64,000 nucleotides of DNA, from positions 620,001 to 684,000 of the forward strand of contig JAIVFI010000017.1 in assembly GCA_025558095.1 (NCBI GenBank). The letters are read 5' to 3'. The position numbers were made by a program, and so were the translations under genes. Origin of the DNA: Hyaloraphidium curvatum. Taxonomy: Eukaryota; Monoblepharomycota; Hyaloraphidiomycetes; Hyaloraphidiales; Hyaloraphidiaceae. This document shows, piece after piece, positions 17,225 to 41,990 of the stretch; positions within the stretch are counted from its first letter, which is position 1; each line of letters opens with the position of its first letter. The notes beneath the pieces were generated by a model. The model was not told the DNA's origin. It did not search any database and saw nothing but the letters and a program-made list of their open reading frames with translations.

Positions 17225-19350
17225 ATCCAGAAACCTCGCGCGCCTAAGGAATAGAAGATCACGATGGAGGACTCAGGTTCTATAGGTATCGCCTGCTTCT
17301 GATGTGGGTTTATGGTCCAGTTTAGGCCCTCAAACGGAAGCTCGAAGATGCGCACGAAGGATGTTGACTCGTTAGACCGCACCGGAGCATCGAAAGCTGA
17401 AGAGCCTGCGGCCATGATACTGTCCAGCGTGTTGTAGATAAATCACCTCCTTCGTCGGAATGATTTCGGCAAGAGGAATGTTCCTTCTCGCTGTAGTCCT
17501 GAGGCACGTCCTGCGGTCGGCGGCGAATCGACGCGCCGACCAAACTTCCACAGCGCGAGACGTCCGAGGTTTACCCTCTTGTTGATCGTCGGTCGGAAGA
17601 GAATATCAGGCTCGTGCCATGAGTGGAGAAAGCAAGCCCGCCGCCGCCGCCGCCGCCGCAATGGGCGTCCCCGCACTCCAAGACCCAACCTCTGCTGCCT
17701 CTCACGGCGACCCGAGCGCGCCGCACGGCGACCCAAGCGCGCCGGACGCCGATTTCTCGCCCGAAGAATGGGTGTGCCTGTTCCCCGCCGCGACGCCGCC
17801 GTTCCGGCCGCTGCTGCAAGACGAGGAAGCAGGGGAAGCGGGGGGCGACCCCGCGGCCGAGTTCCGAGGAGCGCACCCCGTGACGTTCGAAACCATGCTG
17901 GCCGACTTCGACGACCCCGTGCTCCGAATGTTCGCTTTTCTCTCCGCGTCTCCGACCGCGAGCTTCCTGGGCTGGAGGACCACAGGACTTACTGGACTCT
18001 CCGAGTGCTTCATGCTGGCATTCCAGGGGCTGGCATGGGCGTGGAACGACGGCCGTTTCGGAACCAAACAGATGGCGGTGGGAATGGCTTCCCTGGCTAT
18101 CATTGCCTCTATCGGCTTCGGAACTTTCGTTCTCTACGCCCTCGCCGTTCCCAGGGTGCCCAAGGTGCTCGATTTTTCCGCCCCGGCGGTGCTCTGCAGA
18201 TGGCTGCAGCTGACGAGGAAGGAGGGAGGGGGGAAACCTGGAGCACCGGTCAATGCTGGAGCCCGCAATCTCGTCGCGCACGAAGAGGGTGACCGTTTCT
18301 GTCCGTGCTCTGTCTGTGTCGGCAACATCCAGCAGCTTGCAGCTTGTATGACCTTCTTGGACATCGTTCTCAACTTCCTCGTTGGATTTTTCTGGGTATG
18401 GACTCCAGGTTGGACTGCACTTGTTACATATGGAGCCCAGCTGTGGTCCACATGGTGGGTTGCGTTCTCGGAGCAATCTACGGTTAGTGGCCTTGGCGTC
18501 GAGTGCTTCTGTTCACTCATCGCCATCTGCTTTGCAGCTTGCGCTTCGCTGGCGTACTTCAGGAACTGTGCTTGTCGCTTCGTTGGCATAGCCAACATTG
18601 CTTACGCTAGGCTTGAAGCAAGGCTGCACCATCGTGCTGTCTATGAGATCCATGCTGGAAACTGTGCTCAACGGACGCCCGAACAGGCAGGGACCGTGGT
18701 TGTACGTTCGCCTGCACCACAGCTTTGCTGCGTGGTGCAAGACGCGGGAGATCCAAGACCAAGCCATCGTCAGTAAATCGATGTTGGTCATCTTTTTGCC
18801 TTCGGTCGTCATTGCGATCGTTGTCAATGTCGTGAGTGGTTGGGACAGGGAATCGAGCATCCGGGGTGCTGACGCTGCCGCCATCAAACAGGCGGCCGGA
18901 TCCTGCGTCACTGCCTGGCTCCTCTTCGTCACCGGCTTGGTCGTCGTCTACATGCTCATCAACGCCATCAACCTCGCCTAGCGCAACAACCTCATCTCCG
19001 TCGTCGCATCGGCATACCACGATGCCCGGCGGGACCTCCGCACGGCGTGCCTCAAGCTCGGACCGACCCCTCTCGCCGCCGCGCTGGAGCAGCACGACCG
19101 CGTCATTGGCTCGTTCCTCGAGGTGTCGCGGTACAGCGCCAAGATTCTGGGGTTCACCGTCACCTACGGAGGCGTGCGGACCATGGTGGTCACGATGGTG
19201 ACCCTCTCTGTGGCTCTGTGGAGCGTGTTCAGGTCTCTGGGGGTGTTCTTCACGATGGAGAGCTTCTGTCCTTTGGTTGACTAGGAGGTGGAGCCAAAGG
19301 TGGCAAGAATCGCGATCGCCGCGCCGTCTATTCCGCCTCCGGCTCAGAGC
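17225..19350 (+). repeat. Inverted duplication, arm A (partner 39740-41990)
   Basis: This segment matches the reverse complement of 39740-41990. Similarity starts in the upstream flank (shared GGTATCGCCTGC, GATGTTGACTCGTT and TAGATAAATCAC words) and continues through the multi-TM gene. It ends a few bases past the stop of the neighbouring Nudix gene, just after the shared phrase CTATTCCGCCTCCGGCTCA. Identity is moderate in exon 1 and very high in the last ~330 coding bases (about nine differences by eye), a gradient typical of partial gene conversion. Confidence 0.8.
17619..19284 (+). pseudogene. Multi-TM protein, broken copy
   Basis: Inverted paralog of the intact gene at 39803-41462. The start (MSGESKPAAAAAAAMGVPAL) and first ~270 residues are intact and similar. 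There are three lesions relative to the partner: one G missing in the GGTGGG run near 18457-18461, eight bases missing near 18641, and a TCG-to-TAG change at 18979-18981 (AINLA then stop) inside a block otherwise almost identical to the partner. Splice sites equivalent to both partner introns remain (GTTAGT...TTGCAG and GTGAGT...AAACAG), but after splicing the first frameshift gives an early stop in exon 2. A truncated N-terminal protein could still be made. Hydrophobic helices remain visible in the different frames. Confidence 0.8.
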
Positions 19351-20703
19351 TTCACCTTGGGATCGTCGCAGCTCACCTTCCACTTCCCTTGGCGGTCCCA
19401 CTCCATCCCCGTGATCCCGCCCGGCGTGCCGGGCTTGCTGCTCCCGTACGAGAGCACCAGGCGGTGGTGCGAGTCGGCGGGGGTGCCCTTCTCCGTGGCC
19501 GAGTGGAGGGCGTCGCCGGGGAGGACAGCGACCTGGCGTGTGGGCAGTCGCGTCAGAAATGGAAACGGGGAAAGGAACGGGGCAAGTACCGTGTGGTCGC
19601 CGTCCTTGTAGAACTCGGGCTGGAACGCGGCGCGCTCGAAGGGCGTGCGCTCCTTCTTGCCCTCCACGAAGGGGCGGAGGTGCGACGCGGTGGGGTAGAA
19701 CTTGGCCAGCTCCGTGAGCTGTCCGCAAAGTCAGCGACGGCAATCCCGGCAGGAACAGCGGACATCGAACCTGGTAGAACTGCGGCGGGAACATCCGCAC
19801 CTCCCCCTTGTTGAACTTGTCCAGCGCCTCCTGCGGCGTCATCCACGTCAGGCTCAGCGTCTCAGTCCCATCCGCCGACGTCGTCCTCGAGTGCGCGCGG
19901 CCGATGGGGTACGGCAGGTACGTGAGGAAGAACTGGGTCCGGAACCGCTTGTGCTCCACGGTTGGCGTGTTCCAGTTGGCCCAGTGCACGAGGCGCCCGA
20001 CGTCGGGGGCCATGCCGGTGCCTTCAAAGACCTTAGGGAAGGTCGGCGCCGAGGCATGGACCTCCTTGCGGATCTCTTGCAGGCCGCTGTCGGTCAGGGA
20101 GGTGGGGCGGCGGGGGTAGCTGAGCAGCAGGCCGACCTCCTCGAAGCTCTGGGTCGGACGTCAGTCCACAGGTCCTTGTCGGCCCAGAAAGGGGGAGAAA
20201 ACCGACCTCCCGCACGGCTCCGATGTAGTACTCCAGCCCGACGTCGATCCCGTCCCCATTGGTCTTGCGGTTCAGCACGGCCTCGGCCTCGGCCTTCGGC
20301 ACACCGTTGCGCTCCCACGTTTCCAGCAGCAGCTTCCGCCACAGCGGGTCCGAATCCACGGGCTCGATCGCGCCGCCTTGGCGGGGGAGACGTTTCAGCC
20401 CGGAACGCGGCGCCACAGAAAACGCGTCCGCCCACCGGGGTACACCGTCAGCCCGCCAAACGGGCCGCGCTGTGCGCGCTGGATCATCAGCACCTTGTAC
20501 TTTTCGGGGTCCGCGCCCTCCTCGCTCGCGCAGACGATGAGCGACGCCGCCGGCTTGAGCGGCGGCGGGTTCGAAGGCGGGGTGCGCAGGAGCTCGGCCA
20601 TGCCGCGGGCGGGGTTCCGGGAAGAAAGAAGCGAAGCTCGGAGGGGCGAGAGCGCGGCGGAGGCCGGGATGCGCGCAAGGAGGAGGGGGACACCGCGGCT
20701 CAT
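19344..20703 (-). CDS. NUDT19-type Nudix hydrolase, probable mitochondrial form
   Basis: Exons 20436-20703, 20207-20376, 19771-20148, 19590-19718 and 19344-19532 give 377 aa. The Nudix fold opens with PAASLIVCASEE, IQRAQRGPFGGLTVYPGG, then a long insertion (DPLWRKLLLETWERNG) before VRESFEEVGLLLS, the split Nudix box typical of the NUDT19/RP2p family. The catalytic REx2EE core is present (RESFEEVG). The family cleaves CoA or acyl-CoA diphosphate bonds. The chosen ATG at 20703 gives an Arg/Ser/Leu-rich leader (MSRGVPLLLARIPASAAL) like a mitochondrial presequence; an in-frame ATG at 20601 would remove it. The C-terminus is PKVKL, not a standard PTS1. Its stop codon lies at the edge of the inverted duplication. 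Confidence 0.9.
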
Positions 20704-21261
20704 CAGGTGCGGGTGGCAAAGCCTAGTAGGCACTTCGCATGGTGCGAGTGCAAGTCGTGCCGATCCCCCCGCACGTGGGACGACGGGCAGCCGGCCTCGC
20801 CGCCGCCGCTGGATGCCATCAGGCAGAAGGGCGAGGTGCACGCTCGTACCGTACCGCAGTCGTCGAAGCCACCACGCGCCAGCCTTGACACCGCGCCGCA
20901 GAACCGAAAAAAGCTCACCTGAGGAGGCGGGTTCCCCGCAGGAGGGCCAAAACCGTTAGTAGGCCCGCCGAAAGGGCCGTTGCCGAGAGGGATCATGAGG
21001 AGGAAGGCGGCGGCGCGGTGAGTAAAGTGCTTGAGGCGGGGCTGGCCCGAGGCGGCGGCGACGACGGCGTCAGGTAGAGTGGATGGATGCAAGCGGTAGC
21101 GCCTCTGTACCTTGACCTTCCCTGATTGATTCGATCCTATACTGTACACAGATTCCATGTCTGAAGGTCCTCTACGTGTCGTCCAATCGAACAGAAAAGT
21201 CCTCCGTAGCTTGCCGGCACAGTCCGTCAAGCGGGGGCGGCACAGACCGCGCGATCGCCCC
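20704..21261. other. Intergenic
   Basis: About 560 bases upstream of the Nudix gene and downstream of the small secreted gene. Open frames here look like GC-driven chance. No RNA gene or repeat was recognised. Confidence 0.4.
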
Positions 21262-21651
21262 TCATCTCGCAGTGTTCGCTGTACCGCCATAGGCAAGAAA
21301 CACGGTACCGGAAAGAGGCAGGATGAATGGCGAAAACATCATGGGATCGGTAAGGCGATGATTTCTCCACCGGGTCGAAGAAAAGACCCACGGCTCCAAG
21401 CACTCGTTCACCACCTCCTTGCCCTCGAAGCACTCGACCACGTGCCGCCCCTCGCAGTACTGACTTTCGCAAGGCTTGTTCCTGAACGAGAAGCGCGCCG
21501 GGGGGATGAGCGTCGGCTCGGGGAAGATGCCGGCGGGGACAGGGTGCTGCGCCTCTTCCGCGGCCATGGCCGGCCCGGCGACGGCGAGGAACAGCAGGGC
21601 GGCAAGGAGGGCGAAGAGGCAAATGCGGCGCAAAGAGGCGGAGGCGGGCAT
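21262..21651 (-). CDS. Small secreted protein, unknown family
   Basis: A single exon of 129 aa begins with a strong signal peptide (MPASASLRRICLFALLAALL, then FLAVAGPAMA). The mature part is short, with four Cys in CESQYCEGRHVVECF and NECLEPW. I do not recognise the family. The C-terminal ~30 residues after VFSSTRW look less protein-like, so an intron or an earlier end cannot be excluded. It is divergent from nothing obvious and sits between the Nudix gene and ABCF2/ARB1, all on the minus strand. An extracellular role is inferred from the signal peptide only. Confidence 0.6.
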   Translation of the reverse strand: MPASASLRRICLFALLAALLFLAVAGPAMAAEEAQHPVPAGIFPEPTLIPPARFSFRNKPCESQYCEGRHVVECFEGKEVVNECLEPWVFSSTRWRNHRLTDPMMFSPFILPLSGTVFLAYGGTANTAR

Positions 21652-21924
21652 CGTTGACGCCGGTCACGGAGTTCGTCGGGAACCGAACGGAGTGATGGAA
21701 TGAATCACCGGCGACCAACGGCGACTTCGAATCACTGGCCGGCTGGAGCAAGCTTCGAATCACACGCGGCTGGAGCACCCTCGAGTAAGAGCAAGCAGCT
21801 ATGATCATGGCAATCTGCATTACACATCTCTATGGGAACGTCTATCGGGCGCCGGAAGCCCGCCCCGGCCCCCGCGAGTGCCGTCACGTCCAGGATTCCA
21901 GCATGCAGGTACGGAAAGGAAGGC

Positions 21925-24266
21925 TCAGAGGCCCTTGAGGTCCACCTGCACCTCGTCCCGGAGCTTGTCCTTGTACTGCGCGATGGTGCCCTCCCACTTC
22001 GTGACGGTGCCGTTTTCTGGCAAAGGGAATGGATCAGCATCGTGGCGTTGTCAAGATCCTGAAGGAGACCAACCGCAGACGAGGATGTCCTCGGCCACCT
22101 GACTGATGAGCCGGAAGTCGTGCGAGACGAGCACGACGCCGCCGGTGAACTCGTTGATGGCGTCCGCGAGGGCGTCGATCGAATCGATGTCGCTGGACAA
22201 CAGAGTCAGATGGAGCTTCGGGGCCAATCCACGCGCAACTCACAGAGCGTTGGTCGGTTCGTCGAACAGGATGATGTGCGGCCTGCTGAGCGCGATCTCG
22301 CAAAACACGATCCTCGCGCGCTGCCCGTCCGACAGGTTCCGGATCGGGCAAAGCTGCGAGTTGCCCGTCAGGCCGAACCGGCCGATCTGCTGGCGCCAGA
22401 ACTGCAGCTCCCGCGGGAGGTCGGGGAACTTGCTGCGCAGGTACTCGATGGCCGACGCCGTCATGTCGAGCTGGTCCGCGGCGTGCTGGTGGTACCGGAC
22501 CATCTTCATGTTGGTGTGCCGCGAGACGGTGCCGTTGACGGGGACGAGCTCGCCGGTCATGAGCTTCAGGAGCGTCGATTTGCCTAGCAGAGGCAAGAAA
22601 GTGAGCAAATCATTCCGCCGCAGGTCTCGAAGATTCACGCACCGGCTCCGTTCGGCCCGACGAGCGCCACCCGCGAGTCCATGTCCACGCCGAGGTCCAG
22701 GTCCTTGTAGATCAGGTCCTCCCGCTTCTGGCTCCCGTTGTAGCTGAACGACACCTGGGTGAAGGCCACCAGCGGCGGCGGCAGCTTCCCGATCTCCTGG
22801 AAGTAGAACGCCGTCGTCTTGCGCTTCTCGACCTTCTCCACAAGGCCGTCGGCCTCCATCTTGTCCAGGATCTTCTGGCGCGACTTGGCCTGCCGCACCA
22901 GGTTCGCGTACGTGCCGACCGAGGCGATGAACTCCTTCATGTGCTTGATCTCGGCCTGCTGCTTGTCGAACTGCTTGTTCTGGTTGACCGAGAGCTCGTC
23001 GAAGGTCTGGACGTACTGGTCGTAGTTGCCCGTGTAGTACTGGAGCGTCTTTTTTGGCGTCCAGTCAATGATGTTCTAAACGGCGGTCGCAGGTGAGCAT
23101 CAAGACAACCGGTGTCCAGCACAAGCGATCCCACCGTGCAGACGTTGTTGAGGAAGTCCTGGGAGTGGGAGACGATGAGGAGGATGCGGTCGTAGCGCTT
23201 GAGGTACTCCTCGAGCCACACGCAGGCGCCGAGGTCTGAAGCAGCAGAAGTGAGCGAGGAGAATGATCAATCGCAACGCCTGCGCTCACCAAGGTGGTTC
23301 GTAGGTTCATCCATGATCAAGAGCGTGGGTCTCACGAACAGGGCCCGGGCAAGGCTGACCCTCATCCGCCAACCACCGCTCAGGTCCTTGGTCATCTTCT
23401 TCATCCGCTTCGCGTCGAAGCCCAGACCGTGGAGGATCATCGAGGCGCGCGCCTCGAAGGTGTTGGGGTCCAGCCGGTCAATCGACTCGTAGATCCCGTC
23501 GAGCAGCTCCGACTCCGGGTCCTCGGTGAGGATCTGTTCCATCAAGTCCTCCAGGCGCTGAAGAAAAGAGAGATCAGGTCCACGGGAAACCAAATGGTGG
23601 GCAAGCTCGACCAACCTTGACCTCCTCGGCACCGATAGCAACGACGGCCTCCAAAGCGGTCTGCTCCGTCGCCGCGTACTCCTCCTTCAGCAGATAGATG
23701 TCGATGTGATCCGGGATAGGAGCCTCGCGGGCGGCAAGGGAGCGAAGGAAGGTAGATTTGCCTGGGCAACGACGGTGGTCAGATCAATGCCCAGCGTGGT
23801 TCCGAACTCGCCCAGACAACAGCCCAAAGGCCAGAGCTGATGCGGTCCCTCCACACGTCCAAAGATGACGAGACCCACCGCAGCCGTTGGCGCCGATGAG
23901 ACCATAACGCCGACCAAAGTTGAGTTCGATGGTCGTCTCCTGCAGCAAGATGTTGCTGTAGAAAGAAAGGGAGTACAACTCGATCTTGATGTCCCTCGAT
24001 TGACGGTGAGACGTCAGGACGCCGGAGCTGGTCCGGTTTCCGGCCTCCGGGTCGGGGGCCGTGGTGGAGCCGCCTAGCGAGAGGTTCGAGACGGACGAAG
24101 CCAGTGTTTCCGCCGACTCGTCGCTCCTGTCCGACAGGGCGGGGGAGGCAGCCCGCTTCTCAGCGTCCTTGGCGGCCTTCGAGGAGGGGGCGGCCTTTCC
24201 GTTGGCCTTGGCGGCGCCGTTGGCCTTGGCAGGCGCCGGCTTCGTGGCCTTCGCTTTCGGAGGCAT
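21925..24266 (-). CDS. ARB1: ABC-F ATPase, ABCF2/ARB1 orthologue
   Basis: Eight exons: 23879-24266, 23616-23761, 23290-23557, 23135-23235, 22643-23075, 22244-22583, 22074-22192 and 21925-22016, giving 628 aa. An N-terminal Lys/Ala-rich tail precedes two ABC domains without TM segments. ABC1: GANGCGKST, signature [20 protein letters not shown]2: GPNGAGKST, signature [17 protein letters not shown] (Ala replaces the usual His), then VSHDFRL. ARB1/ABCF2-specific phrases are [32 protein letters not shown] and AINEFTGG. The family works in ribosome biogenesis and shuttles between nucleus and cytoplasm. Every junction keeps phase, and both Walker A motifs are split by an intron just before GKST. It is a complete housekeeping gene. 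Confidence 0.95.
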
Positions 24267-24610
24267 GGCGTGTCCGGGAGAAGACAGCGACCTCAGGAGC
24301 GTTCAGAAAAGACCGCCGAAGAAGTCAGAGGGGCCCGAAGAGGTGGCAGGAGGCGGCGTCCGGGTGTGGAACGAGGCAAGAGGTGCGGGAGAAAAATGGC
24401 GGGCCGAGCCTGCGCTGGGACGACCGCCCCAACAAGGCGGCTGACCTGGTGATTTCTCGGACAGGAAGGCCATCGAAAGAGGATGATGTCTATTCTTGGT
24501 CCGCCCTGTCGCTCGGAAGACCCAGGAATCGCTCCATAAAGGCCTTGTAGCGCGGACGCATCAGCTCCAAGAGCTGCCAAGGAGCTGGTAAGCCCGAGGA
24601 CGATGATTTC
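24267..24610. other. Intergenic, ARB1 promoter and SDR 3' flank
   Basis: About 344 bases. Nothing coding is supportable. It contains the ARB1 5' leader and the region just past the SDR stop. Confidence 0.4.
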
Positions 24611-25712
24611 TCAGTCCCGCCGAACCTTGAATCGGGTGCCGACCTCCAGCTTCTCGAAAGACGCCGCAGTGTTGCCGACGGCGATGTCCCGCTCCCCTTT
24701 CGCGAAACCAGCGAACACGGAGGCCACGAACTCGTCCACGGGCATCTCGGCGAGCTTCCCCCGGTCTTCCGCCGACATTTTGTCGAATGCCAGGGTAGGT
24801 TGATGTTTGTGATCGTGCAGCTCGGATGCCACCAACGGCGGAAGGATCTCGATAACGTGGAGGTTAGGGAAGGGGTCAGAGAGCTGTTCTCGAATTGCGA
24901 GGATCAGGTGATGAAGAGCAGCCTGGGACACTCAGTCAGCACATCTATGGCCCTCGCGGGACCGCGAGAATAGGCCTACCTTGGTGGCACAGTAATTCGC
25001 ACACGCCGGCAATGGCACAAGGGCGAGACCGGACGTCACAACCGCGAGGTACGAGTCGGTGCCCGCCTTTGCGAGCCCTTGGAGGTGCGGGAGGAAATGA
25101 ACGATCATGTGGAGGAAAGAAGTATAGTTTGTGTCGACCTCGGCATCCAACTCGTCCAGGCTGATCGAAGAAGGGTCCAGGAAGTTGGTTTGCCGCTGGA
25201 AGAAGCACGAGAACGCGGATAAGTAAGCGCCGCATCCATCTCCTCCGAAGCGAATCACGGTCACCTGCAAGCCAGCGTTCAGGATGACAGCGTTGAGGTC
25301 CGGGTTCTCCTCGACGACCTTCTTGCACCACGGTCCCAACTCCGCGAGCCTGGAACCATCGAGAGGGTAGGCACGCACGCGGTCCCCGTACTTCGAGGTC
25401 ATTTCGTCCAGCCGCTCCTGCCTCCGGCCGGTGACAATGACCTTCGTCGTGGGCGCGACGAGGAAGGCCTCGGCGAGAGCGTAGCCCAATCCGGAGGTCG
25501 CCCCGTGAACTAGGACGGTGTTGAACTTGAACGGCTTGCCAAGAGGATATCTGGATCCAGTGGCACCCAGGAATAGCGCAGGTGTTGGCCATTCGAATGC
25601 GTCAGAACTTCTTGTCGCGCCGCGCTCGCCCAAGCGCTAACCGTTCGTAGTGGTGGGCCGCTTTCCGCGTCCCTGCCGAGGCAGGATCGCCACCGGCATT
25701 GCCCGAGGCCAT
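24611..25712 (-). CDS. Short-chain dehydrogenase/reductase
   Basis: Exons 25642-25712, 25265-25550, 24980-25195 and 24611-24922 give 294 aa. The Rossmann nucleotide motif is VLVHGATSGLGYALA (TGxxxGxG type, with HGA), followed by VIVTGRRQERL, whose Arg suggests NADP(H) preference. NAGLQ is the NAG motif, VTSG provides the catalytic Ser, and NYCATK the Tyr-x3-Lys pair. The intron between NAGLQ and RQTNF removes an in-frame insert. The short first exon (MASGNAGGDPASAGTRKAAH) is joined in phase by an acceptor before TATCCTCTT, giving ERYPLGKPFKFNTVLV; without it no ATG is in frame. Classical single-domain SDR of normal length; substrate unknown. Divergence in the C-terminal region gives no further clue. 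Confidence 0.88.
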
Positions 25713-25864
25713 GGCGGCGGTTGAGCGACCTCGACGGGGAAACTTTGTGAGGGACGTCGGAATCGGCTCCTCGCGTCGGTGTCGACGGACCAAAACACAT
25801 ATCTTTCTTCGCGCCGCCAGCAAGTACAGATACCGTCCAAGAACGCGTAGACGACAGAGATCGA

Positions 25865-26451
25865 CTAGAGCTTCGGCTTGTGGTCCACGAGAGGCGTCAG
25901 GAACTTCATCGGGCCGTTCGTGGTGTACTGGCCGAGCTTGCTGCCGACTGGCAGAAGAAGGCGAAATAGGTGAGACATGAACGAGCGAAAACAGTGAGCG
26001 GGCGCACGTTTGGCAAAGTGGGGTGACTTGAGGTGGGCAACGAACGCGTCGCGGTCCTTGTAGTGCTCGACCTGGTTGCGAGTTGAGGTTAGAGACGAAC
26101 CAGCGGCAGACAGCAAAGACCAACCATAAAGTACTTTTCGGGCTCCGTCCGGGAAGCCAGCTCCTTCGGGTTCTTCGCCTGCTGCGTCAAAGTGTAAGTG
26201 AGCATGCCTGGCTCCTTCTGTCCTCCGAGAATCGCGTCAGCGGACTTCGGCGCTCCAAAGTCATGTCGTTCCCACGAGCGACTCGGTCATGAGCTCCTTC
26301 ATGAGGGCCTCGAAAGCTTCCCTGAGAAGATGAAAGGGAACGAAGAGGAGAGAGGGGGGAACAGTCGGTTCAACGGCACACTGCGGTCCCGTGTGGCCAC
26401 CGACTTCTGCCCCGGCTTCACGCTCATCTCGGCAATGATCCAGAACGACAT
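25865..26451 (-). CDS. Antibiotic biosynthesis monooxygenase (ABM)-like protein
   Basis: Five tiny exons (26405-26451, 26276-26321, 26125-26217, 26008-26071, 25865-25947) give a 110-aa ABM fold: MSFWIIAEMSVKPGQKEAFE, then ALMKELMTESLKEPGMLTY, PEKYFMVEHYKDRDAFVAHL, SPHFAKLGSKLGQY and a final FLTPLVDHKPKL. The order of strand, helix and the HL-SPHF motif matches small dimeric ferredoxin-like monooxygenases such as quinol monooxygenase YgiN. Those proteins oxidise quinols or aromatic substrates without cofactor, or have no catalysis. Four introns in 333 coding bases is extreme even here, but all phases agree and the result is continuous with the family. It is upstream of the SDR on the same strand; a joint redox role is only a guess. 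Confidence 0.87.
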
Positions 26452-27258
26452 TGTGACGCGCGCTTGGCGATGGGATAGTCTTTGGGTACGGGGAGCGCGT
26501 CCGACGTCCGTCCGAGCCGGCGCGCGGGAGACAGCGCGGCGTCGCGCAATCCCGGTGCCAGAACGAGACGGAAATGGTCAGGTCCGAGGCAGTCGTTCGA
26601 AATCGTTGGGCGTCCTCACGAGCTGCCGTGTAGTGCCGAACTCGCGGGATTGTCGGGACGGTTGATTTCGGCAGCCGATCGAACTTGCCACCGCACCCCG
26701 CGGACCAGAGGACCACAGTTGAGGACGCAGCATTCCTCATCACAAAGCAAGACGAATCCTATACTACGACCGCGACGTGTTTGTCTTCCAGATTCAGCTG
26801 CCTCGCCTATCTTCGGATCACCATCTCTCGCACAGATTGAAAGCGTTTTCACGGCGCAGATGTTCGACGCACCCTCAAAAGCAGCATCAGAGAATGTGGA
26901 TCGGAGGCGACTATCATTGAAGCAGAAGAAGCCACCCGTCGTCCGATAGCTGGCTGTGCTAACTGACTTGGCCACCGAGGGCCTGGGATCCTTGGGAGTT
27001 CCCGCTGCCGCCATCACGCCATTCGATTAATGCAGGGTAAGCGGATGCAAAGTCCCGTCGCGTCAGATTCATCCGACGTTCCGATGGACATGTGAGTGCG
27101 GGACCCTTTGCGGGTGGGGTCGGAGGCGGGGGTTCCTGCCCAGCCTTGAGGACCCTTAAGCGGGTCGGCCGACTTTCTTGACCGCCGCCCGCCTTCCTCG
27201 TCCAGCATCTGCGTCCACTTACCCTCGACTTCCCCTCCTCATCGACAAGGACGCGCAG
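26452..27258. other. Intergenic, divergent ABM / bestrophin promoters
   Basis: About 800 bases. AT content rises around 26740-26960. Small open frames exist, but none shows conserved or structured protein. It holds both promoters; no specific element was identified. Confidence 0.4.
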
Positions 27259-32941: not shown

Positions 32942-33077
32942 CCCCAGCCACGCTCGCGGGGGGAGCGGGAGGGGGAGGGGGAGTCTGTCCCCACTGACGT
33001 CATCGGGCTGGTGTGGGTCCTGGGCCCCCACCGCAGCCCCACGCGCCGCAGCCCCCGCCGAGCGGTTCCGTGGGGCC
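32942..33077. promoter_or_regulatory. Compact bidirectional promoter of the glycosyltransferase pair
   Basis: Only 136 bases separate the two ATGs of divergent genes for secretory-pathway glycosyltransferases, so both must be driven from this interval. It contains a GGGAGGGGGAGGGGGAG purine run near 32962-32980, a plausible GC-box-like element. Co-regulation is inferred from geometry. Confidence 0.5.
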
Positions 33078-34544
33078 ATGCGGGCGCTGGTCCGCGGGGC
33101 CGTCGCGGGCGCCGCGCTCTGCGCCGCCGCGGTGTGCGCCGCCGTGGCCGGCGAGGCCCGCGGGTGGGCGCCGCGCCCGCCGCCAGCGCTCGCGCCGCTG
33201 CTGCGCGGCCCCGTCGATGCCGCGGCGCTCGGGCGCGGGGCGCCGCGCGCGCAGCTGATCGCGGCGTTCGCGTTCGAGGGCCCCGCGCGTGCGCGCCCCC
33301 TCCGCGCACGCCCCGCGTTCCGGCACTGCCTCGTCGTCGCCGACGTCGCGCACGGCAACCGCTCCGGCCCGTCCAACCAGCTGCTGGCCGTCGTGCGGCT
33401 GGCCGTGCTCGCGCGCGACCTGCTCGGCTGTCGGCTGGCCGAGCCCGCGCTGGGCAGGCCGACGCGGTGGGGCGCCCCCGCGGTGCCGGCGTCGGCGCTG
33501 CTCGAGACGGACGGTGGCGCGTGGGCGCTGGCGGACGGCACGCCGCTCTTTGTCGGGCGCGACGAGGGGCTGCGGCTGGGCCTGCACCCCGCGTGGCTGC
33601 CGCCGCCGCCGGCAACCGCAGATGGCCCGCCGCCGGGGCGCCCGGCCGCCGCAGAGGACCCGCCGCCGGGCATCGCCTGCGCCATCACGCCCACCATCGC
33701 CCTGCTCACGCCGCCGGCCGACTACCCGCCGGCCATCCGCTGCTCCTCGGCGACCGCCGCGTGGGACCGCCCGGGCTGGGACGCGGACCTGCTCGCCGAC
33801 GCCCGGCGGACGCACGCCCCCGGCGGCCTCGCCGTCGTCGGCGTCCCCGTGCCCATGTTCTTCCACACCGCCTTTGCCCCCGACGACCCCGCCGCGGCCC
33901 GGCCCGTCTGGCACCTCAACGCCGCCCCGGAGCACCCGCGCTCGGTCCTCGCCCCGCGGCCGTTCCTGCGCGACCTCGCCCGCGCCTGGCTGGCCAACCT
34001 CACCGGGCTCGCCGTCCCTCCTTCCCGCGGCGGCGGCCCCTGCCCCGACCTGCCGTACGCCGCCGTGCACTCGCGCGCCGCCCCGTCCTACGCGCAGCTG
34101 TGCGCCGAGATCCCCGAGGTCCCCTGCGGCACCACCACCGCCGCCTCCGCCCTCGCCGCCTCGCAGCTCGCCTGCCGCCACCCGCTCGTCCTCATCGGCA
34201 GCGACACCCCCTCCGGCCTCGCCCGCGCCGCCCTCGCCGCCGCATCCGCCCTCTGCCCTTCCCCGGCGCGCATCGTCGACCTCCCATCGCAGCACCACCC
34301 GTCCATCCTCCCCTTCCTGCGCGGCCTCGTCCCCGCGCCTCCGCTGCTCGCCGCGGGCCCGCGCGACGCCGAAGCGCTCGCGCTCTACTCGGCGACGCAG
34401 CTGCTCATGGCGTGCGCGGACGAGTTCGCGGGCACGGCGAGGAGCACCTTCTCGGAGCGGGTCAGGGGACTCAGGGGGTGGCTGGGGAAGGGAGGCGTGG
34501 CGGAGCTGCCGCCGCTGAGGTTCGGGGGGCCGGACGGCGGGTGA
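33078..34544 (+). CDS. O-fucosyltransferase-like glycosyltransferase (GT-B)
   Basis: Single exon of 488 aa with an N-terminal hydrophobic anchor (VAGAALCAAAVCAAVA). The catalytic part has VADVAHGNRSGPSNQLLAVV, matching the N-terminal nucleotide-sugar region of O-fucosyltransferases (GxxNQ), then VPVPMFFHTAFAP, a basic YAAVHSR motif like the conserved HxR, LVLIGSDTPSGLA and a C-terminal MACADEFAGTARSTFSE, which resembles the D/ExxxFxGxxxSTFS motif of GT65/GT68/GT106-type enzymes. GDP-fucose is the expected donor (family knowledge). Location is ER/Golgi by the anchor. It is intronless and extremely GC-rich like its divergent neighbour, suggesting a shared history. Confidence 0.8.
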   Translation: MRALVRGAVAGAALCAAAVCAAVAGEARGWAPRPPPALAPLLRGPVDAAALGRGAPRAQLIAAFAFEGPARARPLRARPAFRHCLVVADVAHGNRSGPSNQLLAVVRLAVLARDLLGCRLAEPALGRPTRWGAPAVPASALLETDGGAWALADGTPLFVGRDEGLRLGLHPAWLPPPPATADGPPPGRPAAAEDPPPGIACAITPTIALLTPPADYPPAIRCSSATAAWDRPGWDADLLADARRTHAPGGLAVVGVPVPMFFHTAFAPDDPAAARPVWHLNAAPEHPRSVLAPRPFLRDLARAWLANLTGLAVPPSRGGGPCPDLPYAAVHSRAAPSYAQLCAEIPEVPCGTTTAASALAASQLACRHPLVLIGSDTPSGLARAALAAASALCPSPARIVDLPSQHHPSILPFLRGLVPAPPLLAAGPRDAEALALYSATQLLMACADEFAGTARSTFSERVRGLRGWLGKGGVAELPPLRFGGPDGG

Positions 34545-34900
34545 CGTGCGCTCCCCGTCCGCGGGGACCCGATCGTGCGGCGCAGGGCCCGCCGCTTTTC
34601 CCCGCCGCCGCCCCGCGTGCCGGCTGTGCCGCGGAGCGGACCTGCGAACGCCGGCGGGCAGCCCCGCGCCGGCGGGCAGCCCTGCGCCGGCGGGCACGCG
34701 GCCGCCGAGCGCGCGGCGCGGGGGTCGGACCCGGGGCGGAACTCCGCAACGGTAGCCTGGGACGGGCGGCGGATGGAAGGGACGAAGGCGAATTCCGCCC
34801 CGAAACTCCGTCGCCCTTTTCACTCGTCGAGAGAGACCGCCTCAAAATACAACCCCGGACTCCCTTCCGCGCCAACTCCGCCCGTCCGCCCGCCCCGCCT
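34545..34900. other. Intergenic, convergent ends
   Basis: About 356 bases between the O-fucosyltransferase-like stop and the F-box/LRR-like stop. It contains a short GC-rich tandem repeat (34648-34700). Nothing coding is supportable. Confidence 0.4.
34648..34700 (+). repeat. 18-base tandem repeat, about 3 units
   Basis: Unit close to GCGCCGGCGGGCAGCCCC, repeated about three times with small changes. It is non-coding and lies in the 3' intergenic space. Confidence 0.7.
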
Positions 34901-36301
34901 TCACGCCAACACCTCCGCCACCACCAACCCTCCCCTCTCCGCCCTCAACCTCCGCACCATCCCCGCCATGGCCTCGTACACCACCATCACCCTGATCACC
35001 TCCAGCCCCGGCAAGCTCAGCAGCGCGTCGCCGACGGCCTCCCAGCTCGTCGTTCCCAGCTCTTTGCCGACCCTCCGCAGCTCGACCTCGCGCAGCCGCG
35101 AGAGGCCCGCGGGCGGGGGGCGGGGGAACCACCTGAAGAAGCCGGGCTTGGCGGCGAGCTTTTCCAGGCGGGTCTGTGGGAGCAAGAAGGCGAGCGGGAC
35201 GGAGGCGTGGGTGCCCGCGGCTTCGAGGAACGCGAGGCGCAGGAGGGAGGTGGGCGCGGAGGAGCGCAGCCGCGAGACGGCGCCCGGATCGCGGGGGAAC
35301 CAGCACGAATCCAGCGCGAGGTCCTCCAGCGCGGGGTTGTGCGCGAGGAGGGTGCAGAATGCGTCGTGGGCCGAGAGGAGGTCCACGGATTTAAGGTGCA
35401 GCACGCGGAGGGAGGAGGAGGGGAAGGAGGGGAGCCACATGAAGTTGCGGAGGGAGGTGGTGGCGCGGTCGATCTCGAGGCGGACGAGGCGGGTGGTGGC
35501 GGGTGCCAGAGCGGCGGGGGCGTCGTCCGATTGGGCGGCGTGGAGATTGGCAAGGCGCAGCCCCTCGAGCGCGCCGGGGTCGCGGAGCGAGAAGAGCGTT
35601 TCCAGGTCGTCCAGGCACAGGGGGCGCTCCCTGTTGTCCTGCAGCTGCAGGGTGCGCAGGCCAGGAGGGATGGCCGGGAGGAGCAGCGCGGCGCCGTCGT
35701 CCGTTTTGGGCGCGGCCACCGAGAGGGACGCCAGGTGCGGCCAGTTCCGCAGCATCCCGGCCGCCGCGGCGTCCGGCACGTGGTCGTTGAACAGATGCGG
35801 CACGTTGGAGGCCCGCAGTCCGTCCAAGATAATCGTCCATGCCCCGGGACTTGCTCGAAACGTCCGCGCGAAAGAGACCGTCCTCAACCCTCTGCACCTC
35901 TTCAGCGCCTCGGCCGCCCTCCCGACGTTGTCCTCCGACACTCCGATCACCGCGTGCCGCACGAACGACGCGTAGAGCTCCCCTCTTGGCCCTTCCAGCG
36001 CCGGCAGCACCGGGTCCCTCAGGTTCAGGTGCGCCCACAGCAGCTCCGCGCATGCCGCGTGCCACGAAGCGTCCAGCGCGATCAGATTGAAGAGGGATTT
36101 GCGGTCGGAGGGGCGGCAGCGGCACAGGAGGATGTCGGACCACGCGGTGCAGCGGCACGCGCGGGACGCGCGGCGGACGACGCGGCGGACGAGCTCGAGG
36201 AGCAGCCGGGGGCGCGGGCGCGGAGAGGAGGGGGGCGGCGGCGCGTCCGCCTCGTCCGCATCGCTTTCCGCGGCGCCATCGAGGTCCGGTTCGGAGGACA
36301 T
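34901..36301 (-). CDS. F-box/LRR-like protein
   Basis: Single exon of 466 aa from the ATG at 36301 (MSSEPDLDGAAESDADEADA, an acidic start). Residues 30-80 resemble an F-box-like helical region (RLLLELVRRVVRRASRACRC, then ALDASWHAACAELLWAHLNL, common in fungal F-box proteins). From about residue 130 leucine-rich repeats follow: LRTLQLQDN, LEGLRLANLHAA, LRVLHLKSVDLL, LEDLALDSCWF, LREVELRRVG, LPGLEVIRVMV. The probable role is substrate recognition in an SCF ubiquitin ligase. The Leu-rich repeat phase is irregular, as usual in this class. The frame also extends upstream to 36451, but the acidic MSSEPD start is more natural. Confidence 0.72.
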   Translation of the reverse strand: MSSEPDLDGAAESDADEADAPPPPSSPRPRPRLLLELVRRVVRRASRACRCTAWSDILLCRCRPSDRKSLFNLIALDASWHAACAELLWAHLNLRDPVLPALEGPRGELYASFVRHAVIGVSEDNVGRAAEALKRCRGLRTVSFARTFRASPGAWTIILDGLRASNVPHLFNDHVPDAAAAGMLRNWPHLASLSVAAPKTDDGAALLLPAIPPGLRTLQLQDNRERPLCLDDLETLFSLRDPGALEGLRLANLHAAQSDDAPAALAPATTRLVRLEIDRATTSLRNFMWLPSFPSSSLRVLHLKSVDLLSAHDAFCTLLAHNPALEDLALDSCWFPRDPGAVSRLRSSAPTSLLRLAFLEAAGTHASVPLAFLLPQTRLEKLAAKPGFFRWFPRPPPAGLSRLREVELRRVGKELGTTSWEAVGDALLSLPGLEVIRVMVVYEAMAGMVRRLRAERGGLVVAEVLA

Positions 36302-36519
36302 TGTGGCGAATGGTAAAGCGGGGGCGACGCCGCTTCCTCTGCAGCGATGCGCATCACCATTCGTTGCGTCTTCTGACCATGGAAGGCTATTATTGATGCT
36401 ATTGGATCTTGTCAGACTGTCTTCGAAACAATATGAGGAAGGGTGAAGCATGCAGACCCTGTATCTCCAAGAGTCTCCTCAAACTCCGCCTTCGGACGGC
36501 AGCAACCCAGGCCGCCCGA

Positions 36520-37752
36520 ATGAACCGTCTTTCGCTCCTCGTGGAGCTCGCCTCCCCCTTTATAGCCCCCGATGTGCCCACGATGGCCGCGCTCCAGTCT
36601 TTCATCGCCGCGGACGGTCTCGAAGTGGACACGTCTCCCATGTGGCGGCTCGCGCTCCTGGACGGCAGCCCGAACGCGCTGCTTTCGTGCCTTCCGACGT
36701 ATCTCGGGCGGCCGATGCCCGTGAACATTTTCGCCCGCTTCGTGGAGCCGGAGGACCTGAAGGCCTGCTCGGCCGACGCGTTTGCCCAAGTCGCCGGGCG
36801 GATACGCGACGCGCGATGGCAGCTGCTTGTACCGGACCACGCCTCCGAATCGGCCAACGCGGAGGGCGAAAGCGACCGGTGGGAAGACCGGAGGTGGGGC
36901 CGGCAGGAGGACGATGCGTTCGACTGGCGGCGCCTCGACGAGCGCGCCGCGGAGGTCACCCTCGGCCGCGCCGCGGGGGACCCGTACGCGGCTTACCTCG
37001 AGGAAGAGGTGTTCTCCGCGAAGCCGAGGAGGAGGCGGACGACCTCCGCCAGCCTGCGGCAGGAGGTCCTTTCGGCCGCCCTCCGGGAACGGGGCTACGA
37101 GGGGCTGGCGAAGCACCCTGCATCGCAGAGGTGGATCCTGGGCTACCTCCGCGGCTTCTTCGCCGACGCCGTCGGCCGCGTCCTCGACGAGCTCGAGACG
37201 ATCGGGTTCCTCCTTGCGGAAACGCGGTACCCCGAGATCCTGGCGGCCGCGCTCGCGGAGGAAGGCGTGCGCCCGCGCTGGTTCGCCGGGAGGTTCGGGC
37301 AGCGGACGTACGACGCCGTTTGGAGCGCGGAAACGCGCGCCCGGGACGAGGCGGTCGCCGAGTACGTTGCCTACCGCGGCCCCGTGGGCCTGCCGCGCCG
37401 CGCTGCGTGGATCCACGAGGCGAAGGAGCGGGCCAAGGCCGCGAAAGCCGAGCAGGAGTACCGGACGGCCCGTCACCTTGCTCTGATGGCGGAACAGCGC
37501 AAGGCAAAGGAGGAGAGGCTGGCGCGGGAGGAGGCTGCCAAGGCCGACACGCGGGCCGCGGTCGTCGAGCGGCACCGTTTGGCCTTCGAAGCGCTCGCTT
37601 CGGACCCGGAAGCCGCCCCCGTGCCTCCGATCCACGGCCTGACCTCCAACGAGCGGGCCGCGCTGCACGGCTTTGCACAATCGCTGGGGCTGGAAACGTG
37701 GAGCGACGGGCCGCGGTGGTACAGGGTGTTGCACGTCGCGAGACGGGACTGA
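36520..37752 (+). CDS. Coiled-coil protein of unknown function, paralog A
   Basis: Single exon of 410 aa from MNRLSLLVELASPFIAPDVP. I do not recognise a domain. Conserved blocks shared with the paralog at 45705-46940: TMAALQ, GLEVDTSPMWRLALLDG, LSCLP-YLGRPMPV, IFARFVEPEDLK, SADAFA-VAGR, EDDAFDWRRL, SQRWILG, YDAVWSAE and GLP-RAAW. Residues 310-380 form a charged helix (KERAKAAKAEQEY to RLAREEAAK), a likely coiled coil. The C-terminal block PPIHGLTSNERAALHGFAQ is also shared. No signal peptide or TM is present. An upstream in-frame ATG at 36409 would add 37 residues of poor character. Neighbouring F-box/LRR and kinase genes may be functionally unrelated. Confidence 0.75.
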   Translation: MNRLSLLVELASPFIAPDVPTMAALQSFIAADGLEVDTSPMWRLALLDGSPNALLSCLPTYLGRPMPVNIFARFVEPEDLKACSADAFAQVAGRIRDARWQLLVPDHASESANAEGESDRWEDRRWGRQEDDAFDWRRLDERAAEVTLGRAAGDPYAAYLEEEVFSAKPRRRRTTSASLRQEVLSAALRERGYEGLAKHPASQRWILGYLRGFFADAVGRVLDELETIGFLLAETRYPEILAAALAEEGVRPRWFAGRFGQRTYDAVWSAETRARDEAVAEYVAYRGPVGLPRRAAWIHEAKERAKAAKAEQEYRTARHLALMAEQRKAKEERLAREEAAKADTRAAVVERHRLAFEALASDPEAAPVPPIHGLTSNERAALHGFAQSLGLETWSDGPRWYRVLHVARRD

Positions 37753-37970
37753 TCTCGAGGGAGGGGACGGCGATCTTCCGTGATCCGATGGGCGGCCGTG
37801 GCTTGGGTGTGGGCGGTGGTCTTTGCGGGCAGATCGGGCTCCGTGGTCTCGGGAGGAGGAAAGTGCGAATCTTTGGAATGCGACGAGTTCTTAGGACGAT
37901 GCAAAGCACGCAATGCTACTGTCCCATGCATTTTCATCACCTGTGCTGAACCAAAGGCATCCCCAGAGTG

Positions 37971-39033
37971 TCAAACAGCGATGCAATCAACCGCTCTCGG
38001 CCCCGCGTCCACAGCGAGCCACGCACCCTGCCCCTCCGCCCCGCCATACCGACCCCAGTCCCCAATGCGTTCCATCTCCCAGAACCACGGATGCGCCAGC
38101 GCCTCCGCGGCCGTTGCCCTCCGCCCCTGGTCCGGGCAAAGCATCCGTGTGACGAGGTCCCCGAAACCGTGCGAGAACCCCGCGGGCAGCCCCGCCCAGC
38201 GGCACTCGCAGATGGCAGCAAACAGCCCGTGGAAGTCCTCCGCTTGCGCGAAAGGGGTGCGGCCGGTGGCCAGCTCAACGGCGATGCAGCCCGCCGCCCA
38301 GACGTCCACACCGCGGCCGTACGGCAGGCAGCGGACGATCTCGGGGGCGAGGTAGAACGGCGTGCCCGCCAGCTGCGAGAACTGGCCCTGCGCATCCGTG
38401 CCAAAGTCCCCGCAGATGCCGGCGTTGTCGAAATCGGCCAGCGCGAGGTCCGAAGGGTCCGCTTCGGGGCGGCGGAGGAGGATGTTGGAGGGTTTGAGGT
38501 CGCGGTGGGCGATGCCTCGCGAATGGAGGTACGCGAGACCGGAGAGTATGGAGCGGAGGACGGGGCGGATGAGGTGCTCGGGGAGGGGGCCGTGCAGGGT
38601 GAGATAGGTGCGGAGGTCCATCGCGCAGAGCTCCATGACGGTGTAGACCTGTCGGAGCGGGGCGGAGTAAATTCAGGCAAACACTCCAATCTTCCAGCGA
38701 CGCAGATCACACCTTTGACCGGGTCTCGAACATCTCGAACACGCGGCAGACGTTCGGGTGGTTCAGCGACGACAGGGCACCGAACCGGTGCCGCGCCGCC
38801 CTGCGCTCGGCGGCGTCCGCGGGGCACCACACGCTCTTGACGGCGACCTCGCGCCTGTTGTCGAGGCACACCGCGGCGCGCACGCGGCCGGACGCCCCGC
38901 TGCCGAGAGTGGCCCCGGACGCGATGCGGCGGCGGCGTGCGCGGCCGGCGGCAAACAGCGCGGCGTCGGCGGCAGGCGGAGCGGGCAATGAGGCCGGTGG
39001 AGCCTCTCCGCCGCTCGCGCTCGTGAGCGCCAT
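37971..39033 (-). CDS. Ser/Thr protein kinase with DFD motif, family member 1
   Basis: Exons 38713-39033 and 37971-38648 give 332 aa. The domain begins right after ALFAAGRARRRRIAS: LGSGASGRV loop, EVAVKSV lysine, LNHPNVCRVFEMFE, YTVMELC hinge, catalytic loop GIAHRDLKPSN, then LADFDNAG in place of DFG, GTPFYLAPE, DVWAAGCIAVELATG and HPWFW at the end of the C-lobe. All catalytic residues except the DFG glycine are present. The layout is CAMK/CDPK-like but minimal. Glycine-to-aspartate at the third position may alter activation-loop flexibility. The single 64-base intron splits RSK|VYTVM, a site shared with members 2 and 3. It is convergent with paralog A. Confidence 0.88.
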
Positions 39034-39802
39034 CGTGTTTGCCGGGGGTTCGGGTTCGATCAGGTGCTACGATGGGTGGCACTGCTCTGGCGGCGGGTGC
39101 CCGCAACAATTCGTCGGACTCCGCCCGGTCAGGTGCACGCGGCCGGCCCCGCGGCGCCCCTCTATTCACACAGTAGCCTTCTCGATGGTCCATTCGCACG
39201 TTTGCAATCTATCCCGCCCTTTCCGGCGCTTCGCCGGCCAGAAACGAGGGAGCTGCCGGGGGTGTCGAACCACGCGCTGACGCACAGCCACCACGCCCGG
39301 CGCACATGGCCCCGCTCACGGCAGGATTGTCCAACCCAACCGCGGACCTGCCCCGCACTATGCCGGCAGCTATGTTCCTCTCGGGACTATCGTTTGGCCG
39401 CGATTGGCCTCGCCGGACTGCCCGTAGCGGCGGCTTCCTTCGCTCGGGCCCGAAGGCACAGCACCGGCCACCCCGCCGACACCCCCGGTACCCGCCGATC
39501 CAGGCCAGGGCCTGACCTGACCTCGAACGAGAGGTCCGTGCTGCACCGCTTTCCACGTGGAGCGCCGGGGTGGGCGCGGGCCGGGAGCCGGAGGGGAGAC
39601 CCGCCCTGCCAGGTGATTCGGCGAGCCACCGGCAGATGCACGGCGACCGCAAGCTCGGGACCTTTTGCTTTTGCTTTGTTCATGTTGCTTGATCCTCTTT
39701 GCAAATGCTGCAACATTCGATGTCAGCTGTGAGCCGGAGGCGGAATAGACGGCGCGGCGATCGCGATTCTTGCCACCTTTGGCTTCATTACACGGCCACC
39801 TC
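39034..39802. other. Intergenic with duplicated edge and a paralog-A relic
   Basis: About 770 bases. It contains a short relic of the paralog-A 3' end near 39505-39600 and, from about 39740, the outer edge of inverted-repeat arm B. The rest shows nothing recognisable. Confidence 0.5.
39505..39600 (+). pseudogene. Relic of paralog-A C-terminal coding sequence
   Basis: One plus-strand frame reads DLTSNERSVLHRF, against GLTSNERAALHGF in the intact paralog at about 37641. The nucleotide words around CCTGACCTC, AACGAG, GTGCTGCAC/GCGCTGCAC and GCTTTCCAC/GCTTTGCAC agree. Similarity fades on both sides, so it is a fragment. Confidence 0.45.
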
Positions 39803-41990
39803 CTAGTCAACCAACGGGCAGAAGCTCTCCATCGTGAAGAACACCCCCAGGGATCGAAACACGCTCCACAGAGCCACAGAGAGGGTGACCATCGTGACCA
39901 CCATGGTCCGCACGCCTCCGTAGGTGACGGTGAATCCCAGAATCTTGGCGCTGTACCGCGACACCTCGAGGAACGAGCCAATGACGCGGTCGTGCTGCTC
40001 CAGCGCGGCGGCGAGAGGGGTCGGTCCGAGCTTGAGGCACGCCGTGCGGAGGTCCCGCCGGGCATCGTGGTATGCCGATGCGACGACGGAGATGAGGTTG
40101 TTGCGCGAGGCGAGGTTGATGGCGTTGATGAGCATGTAGACGAGGACAATGGAAAGGCAAAAGAGGAGCCATGCGGGAATGCAGGACCCGACGCCCTGAC
40201 GGATGGCGGAAGCGCTAGATCAGTCCCAGATTGTCTTCCCCGAATCGTGTGTCACTCACGACATTGACAATGATTGTGATTACAATCAGAGGAAACATGA
40301 TGACAAACACGGAGTTGCTGAGCAGTGTCTGGTCCTGCATCTCGCGCACTTTGCACCAAGCTGCGAAGCCGTGGTGAAGCCGAACGTACAGCCAAGGCTC
40401 TGACCCGGTCGGCCGGTCCCCGAGTGCAGTTTGCAGCATGGATCTCATGGAGAGGACGACAGCACGATGGTGCAGCCGCGCTTCGAGCCTCGCGGACGCG
40501 ACGTTGGTCACCCCGACAAAGCGAGCTGCAGAGTTCATGAAGGATGCCACGGCGACACAAACTGCAGGTTGGAGATATGTGAGTCAGCAGAGTCATTCCT
40601 GCGACGGGCGTGCGATGGCCTGACTGTAGATGGCCCCGAGAACACAACCCCACCACGTGGACAAGAGTTTGGAGCCAAAAGTGATCCACGTGGTCCATCC
40701 GGCAGTGAAGGTGAAAAGGAATGAGAACAAGAAGTTGTAAACGATATCCAAGAAGGTCATGCAAGCTGCAAGCCGCTGAATATTGCCAACGCAGCCGGAA
40801 CACGGACAGAACCGGTCGCCCTCTTCGTGCGCGACGAGGAAGAGGCTTCCATCGAATGACCCACGACCAGGTTTTGGCCCTTCTTCCTTCCTCGTCAGCT
40901 GCAGCCATCTGCAGAGCACCGCCGGGGCGGCGAAATCCAGCACCTTTGGAACGCTGGGCATGGCCACCGCGACGAGGCCGATGGCAAAGAATCCAAGCGC
41001 AGTTGCGGAAACAACACCTGCGACCATCTGCTTCGTTCCGAAGAGGCCATCGTTCCATGACCAGGAGAGTCCTTGGAAAGCCAACATCATGCAATAGCAG
41101 AGTCCCACTTGCGCAGCGCTCCTCCACCCGAGGAAGCTTGCGCTCCGAGACGCGCCAAGAAAAGCGAACATTCGGAGCACGGGGTCGTCGAAGTCGGCCA
41201 GCATGGTTTCGAACGTCACGGGGTGCGCTCCTCGGAACTCGGCCGCGGGGTCGCCCCCCGCTTCCCCTGCTTCCTCGTCCGGCAGCAGCGGCCGGAACGG
41301 CGGCGTCGCGGCGGGGAACAGGCACACCCACTTTTCGGGCGAGAAATCGGCGTCCGGTGCGCTCGGGTCACCGTGCGGCGCGCTCGGGTCGCCGTGAGTG
41401 GTTGGGTCTGGGAGCGCAGGGACGCCCATTCCGTCGGCGGCGGGGTTGTTTTCTCCGCTCATGGCGCGAGTGCTATCGAGATGCCTCTTCAGGCCGACGA
41501 GCAACAAGCGAAGAATCCTCCGGCGTCTCGCGCTGTGGAAGTTTGGTCGCGTCGATCGCCTCAGGACGTGCCTCAGAACCAGAGCGAGAGGATAGATCTG
41601 CTTGGCAAGAGGTAGTGGCAAGAGGAGGGGAGAGGCGGCCCTTCGCTCGTCCCTCGCTTCGGCCTTCTCCCCTCTTGCTTCTTGAGCCGCTACGCGACTC
41701 ACCTCTTGCCACTGCTCCGGCCGTAACATCCTTTTGCCGAAATCACGGAAGGAAGTGATTTATCTACAACATGTTGGACCGTATCATTGCCGCAGGCTCT
41801 TCAGATTTGGATGCTCCGGTGCGGTCCAACGAGTCAACATCCTTCGAGCCCATTTTCGAGCCTCCGTTTGAGGGCCCAAACCCACATGAGACGCAGGCGA
41901 TACCTAGCGCATGGCAACTGAGTCCTCCAATCGCGACCTTCTGTGCCTTTGGTGCGCGAACCGCGCGCGTTTCTGCATCGCGGAGCAAGG
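39740..41990 (-). repeat. Inverted duplication, arm B (partner 17225-19350)
   Basis: Carries the intact multi-TM gene with its upstream flank in opposite orientation to arm A. The outer edge at about 39745 retains the CTATTCCGCCTCCGGCTCA phrase that in arm A overlaps the last codons of the Nudix gene. This suggests that arm B was copied from the arm A locus or converted by it. Confidence 0.8.
39803..41462 (-). CDS. Multi-TM membrane protein of unknown family, intact copy
   Basis: Exons 40625-41462, 40260-40561 and 39803-40195 give 510 aa. The N-terminus is low-complexity with a doubled HGDPSAP phrase. The body has hydrophobic pairs: around CYCMMLAFQGLSWSW and VSATALGFFAIGLVAVAM; TFLDIVYNFLFSFLFTF; WWGCVLGAIYICVAVASFM; VFVIMFPLIVITIIVNV; AWLLFCLSIVLVYMLIN; and a last VVTMVTLSVALWSVFRSL, so about seven or eight TM segments. 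A soluble loop has FCPCSGCVG (CxCxxC). Introns of 63 and 64 bases have consistent phases and both lie at membrane segments. I recognise no family. Retained residues are ARLEARLHHRA and WLYVRLHHGFAAWC. Function unknown. Confidence 0.8.

Follow-up and report, generated by a model that had tools for sequence, protein, structure and literature searches.

The present study concerns a window of the Hyaloraphidium curvatum genome, the whole stretch of 64,000 nucleotides from 620001 to 684000 of the contig labelled C17, in an assembly of 31.9 Mb and 55 contigs. H. curvatum is free-living in fresh water. The window contains two related gene copies which face each other as reverse-complement arms 20.4 kb apart. 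BLASTN comparison of the window with itself found the arms as two pairs of segments, 17486-19351 with 39725-41589 at 78.9% identity and 17236-17482 with 41725-41959 at 80.6% (positions without a contig label are those of the window). Arm A (17236..19351, plus strand in the arm alignment) contains a gene remnant flanked by about 380 bp on its upstream side and 67 bp on its downstream side, and arm B (39725..41959) lies on the minus strand. Homology of the arms ends sharply past 19351, as only 10 of 49 positions beyond it are identical. An earlier note, made from the sequence alone, had described inverted arms at nearly these coordinates covering a whole multi-transmembrane (TM) gene and its upstream flank, and the BLASTN result bears this out.

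Arm B carries an intact gene (gene B, 39803..41462, minus strand) coding for 510 amino acids (aa). Its exons, as modelled, are at 41462-40625, 40561-40260 and 40195-39803, and the spliced translation has no internal stops; the splice sites were picked by us from a comparison with paralogues. Arm A contains the corresponding pseudogene (pseudogene A, 17619..19284, plus strand), which was recognised by alignment and by spliced comparison with B and whose former exons are at 17619-18482, 18538-18831 and 18892-19284. It has three lesions, namely a 1-nt deletion near 18459 in exon 1, an 8-nt deletion near 18640 in exon 2 and a TAG codon at 18979-18981 in exon 3. Of the two genes, the functional one is B, while A is a pseudogene in decay, which the earlier note had missed. 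It should be noted here that the deposited models omit portions of both genes. The deposited protein P0003 aligns with arm B along 47% of the query, at 99% in that part; it is joined to a kinase and misses some of the central region (the core). P0005 matches arm A by eye.

Identity along the arms is clearly non-uniform. In bins of 100 alignment columns, the part up to 17693 has 67-91% and large gaps, 17694-17893 has 94-98%, 17894-18972 has 60-82% and 18973-19272 has 93-99%, and the last bin of the arm has 78 of 89 positions identical. This is a mosaic with both ends near-identical and not the gradient which the earlier note had proposed. The 5' near-identical block lies in exon 1 (236/244 aligned bases; 17694..17941 on the plus strand in arm A, 41158..41402 on the minus strand in arm B). 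The 3' block (18944..19346, plus strand, in arm A; 39730..40143, minus strand, in arm B) takes in exon 3 at 332/341 and the 3' non-coding DNA, where 66 of the 67 bases to 19351 are identical. A third shared run of 46 identical bp (18178..18223, plus strand, with its partner at 40930-40885) lies within the diverged core. Elsewhere identity is 379/532 in the rest of exon 1, 212/294 in exon 2 and 32/52 at the start of exon 3, while the introns have 28/55 and 36/60 and the upstream DNA has 297/355 with 170 gap columns. The earlier estimate of about nine differences in the last 330 or so coding bases agrees with the nine counted in 18944-19284, stop codon included. Its description of exons 1 and 2 as more diverged and bearing indels holds for exon 2 and the rest of exon 1, and fails for the 5' part of exon 1. 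As a separate observation, 50 bp in the 5' region of arm B (41603-41652) are identical to C12:785672-785721.

The same mosaic is found at silent sites. Synonymous divergence (dS) between A and B is 0.12 in codons 1-100, 1.02 in codons 101-279, 1.03 in the part of exon 2 compared and 0.17 in exon 3, the last value including the diverged first 19 codons of that exon, so that the jump between the end blocks and the core is six- to ninefold. In exon 3 from codon 400 onwards only 7 of 111 third positions differ. The core looks old and not positively selected because its ratio of nonsynonymous to synonymous divergence (dN/dS) between A and B is about 0.24. The longest run of sites shared by A and B covers 34 of 624 polymorphic sites, a length reached in none of 2000 site permutations, where the maximum over ten pairs was 22 sites; a 21-site run also falls inside the core. 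Trees were built from A, B and four paralogues: C at C17:245 kb, D at C17:259 kb, E on contig C19 and, as the outgroup, F on contig C23. In the exon-3 block A and B group together with 100% bootstrap, and the tested alternatives B+D and A+D are rejected with a log-likelihood difference of 53. The best trees of the core keep A and B apart, with 197/804 differences between B and D, 213/783 between A and D and 224/777 between A and B.

Our data indicate, with a probability of about 70%, that the sequences of A and B are a mosaic produced by exchange between members of their family, whichever polarity that exchange had. A and B are facing members of a very large membrane-protein family, and they would have been made mosaic through ectopic recombination (gene conversion). 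The end blocks, that is the 5' flank with the N-terminus and the last exon with the 3' flank, would have been common to A and B until recently, and the core would be old, with a divergence between A and B close to that of unlinked members. From the sequence comparisons, exchange between paralogues appears to fit better than selection as the cause; selection on the protein cannot explain the silent identity of A with B because A is a pseudogene. The earlier note had suggested gene conversion between the two arms. Exchange between paralogues is well supported by dS, by the length of the shared run and by the 3' non-coding DNA, while the two arms as the exchanging partners are one of two readings.

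In the first of these readings, conversion between the facing arms would have homogenised their ends. In the second, a 2.1-2.2 kb unit would have been duplicated in inverted orientation fairly recently and one core then overwritten from a third paralogue, a process which diversifies rather than homogenises. The two are judged about equal, and the overwriting of a core, taken by itself, can only be put forward tentatively, at clearly less than an even chance. In its favour, a genome DNA search skipping very common words matched an upstream stretch of about 235 bp (query 32-266) solely to arm A and the copy of it on contig C47, and C, D and E match only from query position 622 on, in the coding part. 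The upstream identity with its many gap columns is compatible with neutral change at the dS of 0.12-0.17 of the end blocks, i.e. with one age, and the abrupt break of arm homology past 19351 points the same way. Against it, a close donor of the core was not seen. Among the matches listed, the family members that come closest to B reach a protein identity of 65-74% in exons 1 and 2. At DNA level the best match other than A and B has 78%, for a query (40900-41990) which included about 260 bp of the core of B. Conversion of the ends is also favoured by a 3' exon of low divergence in three other inverted pairs of the family, where dS in exon 3 and core is 0.31 vs 0.80-0.90 (contig C4), 0.25 vs 0.82 (C30) and 0.41 vs 0.76-0.85 (C17:245/259, the paralogues C and D). 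In the C4 pair (C4:859-875 kb), the likeness of exon 3 carries on for about 1.1 kb past the coding match, at 93-98% in most bins of 100 columns (lower bins are 60/82, 81/87 and 88/94), and the gene core is alike at about 67-80%.

Several results weigh against exchange as the whole explanation. In the core, trees with A and B as sisters are not rejected by the approximately unbiased test (p of 0.058, 0.11 and 0.23 for three core sets). Bootstrap support for A+B falls to 37% in the 5' block, though A and B differ there at only 15 of 264 positions; C+D+E has 92%, and the outgroup F is distant. The dS of exon 3 is lower between unlinked members too, being 0.55 vs about 1.1 for B and E and 0.62 vs 1.6 for B and F. 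GC content at fourfold sites is higher at the C-terminal end (exon 3) in 12 of 12 genes, at p<0.05 in 10 of them, and regional constraint or GC bias may account for part of the dip in exon 3. The exon 3 of the C17:245/259 pair is not specific to that pair, as D is nearer to E (35/330 differences) than to C (45/333). This and the lowered dS of exon 3 among unlinked members tell against conversion specific to each pair. The raised C-terminal GC was also considered as proof of GC-biased conversion and rejected as unspecific, since it occurs as well in single-frame members where no exchange was sought.

A much less probable explanation is that A and B are duplicates of old age on which purifying selection has acted unevenly, with stronger constraint on exon 3 and the N-terminus than on the core. 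The divergence of exon 3 is indeed the lowest or nearly so in the comparisons made. However, the near-identity extends to synonymous sites and to the 3' non-coding DNA, and constraint on the protein cannot maintain a copy like A with three lesions, so that uneven selection, which dS contradicts, is quite improbable as the cause. A misassembly, of the pattern or of the pair, is the least probable explanation and hardly credible, for A and B differ at about 21% of positions with indels and their flanks differ, even though contig C47 repeats 15333-40947 of the window without mismatch and at least one contig here must be chimeric or alternative.

The refuting case named in the earlier note, one arm being an assembly duplicate, does not apply to the arms, which at 79% identity to each other are separate, yet a duplicate stretch does exist. 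Contig C47 (106,420 bp) matches the reverse strand of contig C44 as far as base 80,810 of C47, and the match to C17 starts at base 80,801, the two matches overlapping by 10 bp. From there to its end it tracks C17 for 25.6 kb (15333..40947 of the window) with 0 mismatches and 5 gap positions; this agreement between C47 and C17 speaks against misassembly, though the same reads could underlie both. The junction lies at window position 15333 (C17:635333), C47:80801 and C44:235700, and to its left C47:77001-80810, the stretch compared, is identical to C44. On C47, A, spacer and B follow one another in the order and orientation which they have in the window, and the copy breaks off within arm B. This is the only second copy that bears on the inversion of the 20 kb which the earlier note had thought possible. 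The copy was considered as a genuine third one and rejected, since C47 joins C44 and C17 sequence; on the contig comparison the junction would be a chimera of the assembly or else a real translocation carried by part of the culture. At its other end (C47:1-3914) this contig has a high-copy element of about 3.9 kb, found nearly full length at 99-100% in at least 9 other places.

The spacer between the arms (19352..39724, 20.4 kb) contains unrelated genes according to Pfam scans of chosen open reading frames. These include exons of an ABC-type ATPase (22243-23686, minus strand), a short-chain dehydrogenase (24935-25636, minus strand), a bestrophin-like gene (27178-28920, plus strand) and a kinase (37974-38672, minus strand). 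A dispersed repeat of about 370 bp is at 20721-21089, with copies of 97-99% identity on C38, C27, C35 and C13 and candidate target-site duplications of only 4 bp. Near arm B there are four related stretches (38076-38998, 42216-43200, 49343-50349 and 61297-61658) with pairwise identities of 66-74%, and protein kinase domains were found in the three scanned. Outside the arms the window also has two tandem direct duplications at 70-71% identity, 5267-6985 with 7246-8953, which code for ankyrin-repeat proteins, and 13889-15633 with 15038-16769.

A and B belong to a family of at least 169 loci on 44 contigs, found with four protein queries and in two further places. Hits for this catalogue were copied by hand and merged by distance, each query flagging 650-734 candidate places and having 82-87 of them scored; C47 and C48 were excluded as duplicates, C48 because its scores equal those of C30. 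A direct DNA search of C17:540-694 kb, C47 outside the shared stretch and C17:243-263 kb found 13 members, one split row being counted once. As just 6 of these 13 stand in the catalogue, three of the 6 being queries themselves, the true family size is probably several hundred. Inverted placement was considered as a bias of the whole family and rejected: an early count of 12 of 13 neighbouring loci less than 25 kb apart (two queries), in which one direct tandem pair on C39 had been merged, fell to 15 of 29 at 5-25 kb with four queries, and at shorter gaps in the larger catalogue 5 of 7 and 3 of 5 are inverted. Inverted placement is no general rule of the family. In a post hoc group, listed by hand, of the 28 loci that come nearest to A and B, all 7 pairs less than 25 kb apart are inverted; introns were modelled for 10 loci of this group, and in four of these 10 a single intron only.

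No member matched a Pfam family above the cut-off, the sole line being member N36 at an E value of 0.18, and no relative was found among PDB chains; Rfam gave no match at gathering scores. The protein searches, each scoring at most 7999 candidates, gave no relatives outside H. curvatum among the matches listed, which is a weak negative, as the same searches missed most members in its own genome. Viral and prokaryotic contigs gave 19 and 32 pattern matches, respectively, none of them confirmed as a relative. No account of this family was found among the papers listed, as judged by titles and the start of abstracts, with subscription journals mostly outside the search. By these sequence searches it is a family without a known domain in a fungal genome of 32 Mb.

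The layout of the protein was read from hydropathy profiles of two alignments (6 and 7 members) and not from a TM predictor. There are six hydrophobic regions, one of which is 39-40 residues long (B 364-402/403) and is read by us as TM5 plus TM6, which would give seven TMs. In this layout the N-terminus has 118-119 aa, the loops have 19-21, 71-72, 16-21 and 75 aa, a very short length and 68-72 aa, and the N-terminus and the long loops fall on one side with the short loops on the other. The TM4-TM5 loop is basic (Lys+Arg 10.8 vs Asp+Glu 4.7), which fits an inside placement, but the N-terminus itself is acidic (6.5 vs 15.3). By its predicted layout B would most likely be a receptor or channel in the membrane whose N-terminus lies inside the cell. 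A fold prediction from 6 sequences for P0004, an incomplete deposited model lacking TM6-TM7, was of low confidence (pLDDT 47.5, pTM 0.27).

The predicted layout is compatible with the insect OR/GR-type channels, homology not being claimed. In animal GRs the TM7 motif has the form T-Y, hydrophobic stretch, Q-F, and it was not seen by eye in the family alignment. A comparison with Orco by hhalign gave a probability of 0.2% and no match, and no place in the genome was picked up with PF12056 or PF08395, though control searches with both gave nothing either. The layout criteria for GRL candidates are those of PMC7746228, where, in the part of the source used, the fungal members keep one of the four positions of the TM7 motif, which for the most part cannot be recognised in plants. 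The GRL or 7TM channels and the plant DUF3537 proteins (PMC7746228, PMC9998090, both in excerpt) resemble the family in a length of about 500 aa and in that its hydropathy is compatible with seven TMs, an inside N-terminus and longer intracellular loops; the six aligned members have 483-512 aa, slightly over the 350-500 aa range of 7TM/GRL. In contrast, the family has no match to Orco, PDB or, above the cut-off, Pfam, it is set apart by the length of its N-terminus (about 118 aa) and by a first long loop with a Cys-rich motif (CPCxxC in B), and its 169 or more loci stand against a single GRL candidate in each of two chytrids (PMC7746228, in excerpt). It could be possible, though we consider it unlikely, that several hundred Hyaloraphidium genes belong, as a fungal branch, to the superfamily of insect-type seven-TM chemoreceptors and channels. 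Cassettes of the 5'/N-terminal part and of the last exon would be swapped between facing copies, and the putative ligand-binding TM1-TM6 core would be kept or made diverse, amounting to a receptor-diversifying recombination system. If a structure confirmed the likeness of the layout to insect-type receptor channels, the family would be a large receptor expansion in Fungi, and how fungi diversify their receptors would become a testable question. The gene family is a larger point than the recombination case.

Known systems of inverted repeats offer a comparison for the locus itself. In Saccharomyces, the 24-kb flip/flop region with YNL018C/YNL034W (PMC9731477, in excerpt) is likewise a fungal case of inverted paralogues around some 20 kb of gene-bearing DNA, and its repeats are homogenised. 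Repeats of the flip/flop kind are near-identical over their full length, whereas the arms in H. curvatum are 79% identical overall and near-identical in blocks only, and no inversion was seen in the one assembly. The human Y palindromes (PMC3723533, in excerpt) also have inverted arms which exchange sequence by gene conversion; their arms are more than 99.9% identical, while the blocks in H. curvatum are a few hundred bases long. What the locus does share with conversion tracts is a discrete near-identical block that includes silent sites and a run of shared sites beyond chance. Exchange between family members, if it is the cause, would make these arms a clear example, from an early-branching fungus of the Monoblepharomycota, of inverted paralogues that have exchanged sequence in a mosaic fashion.

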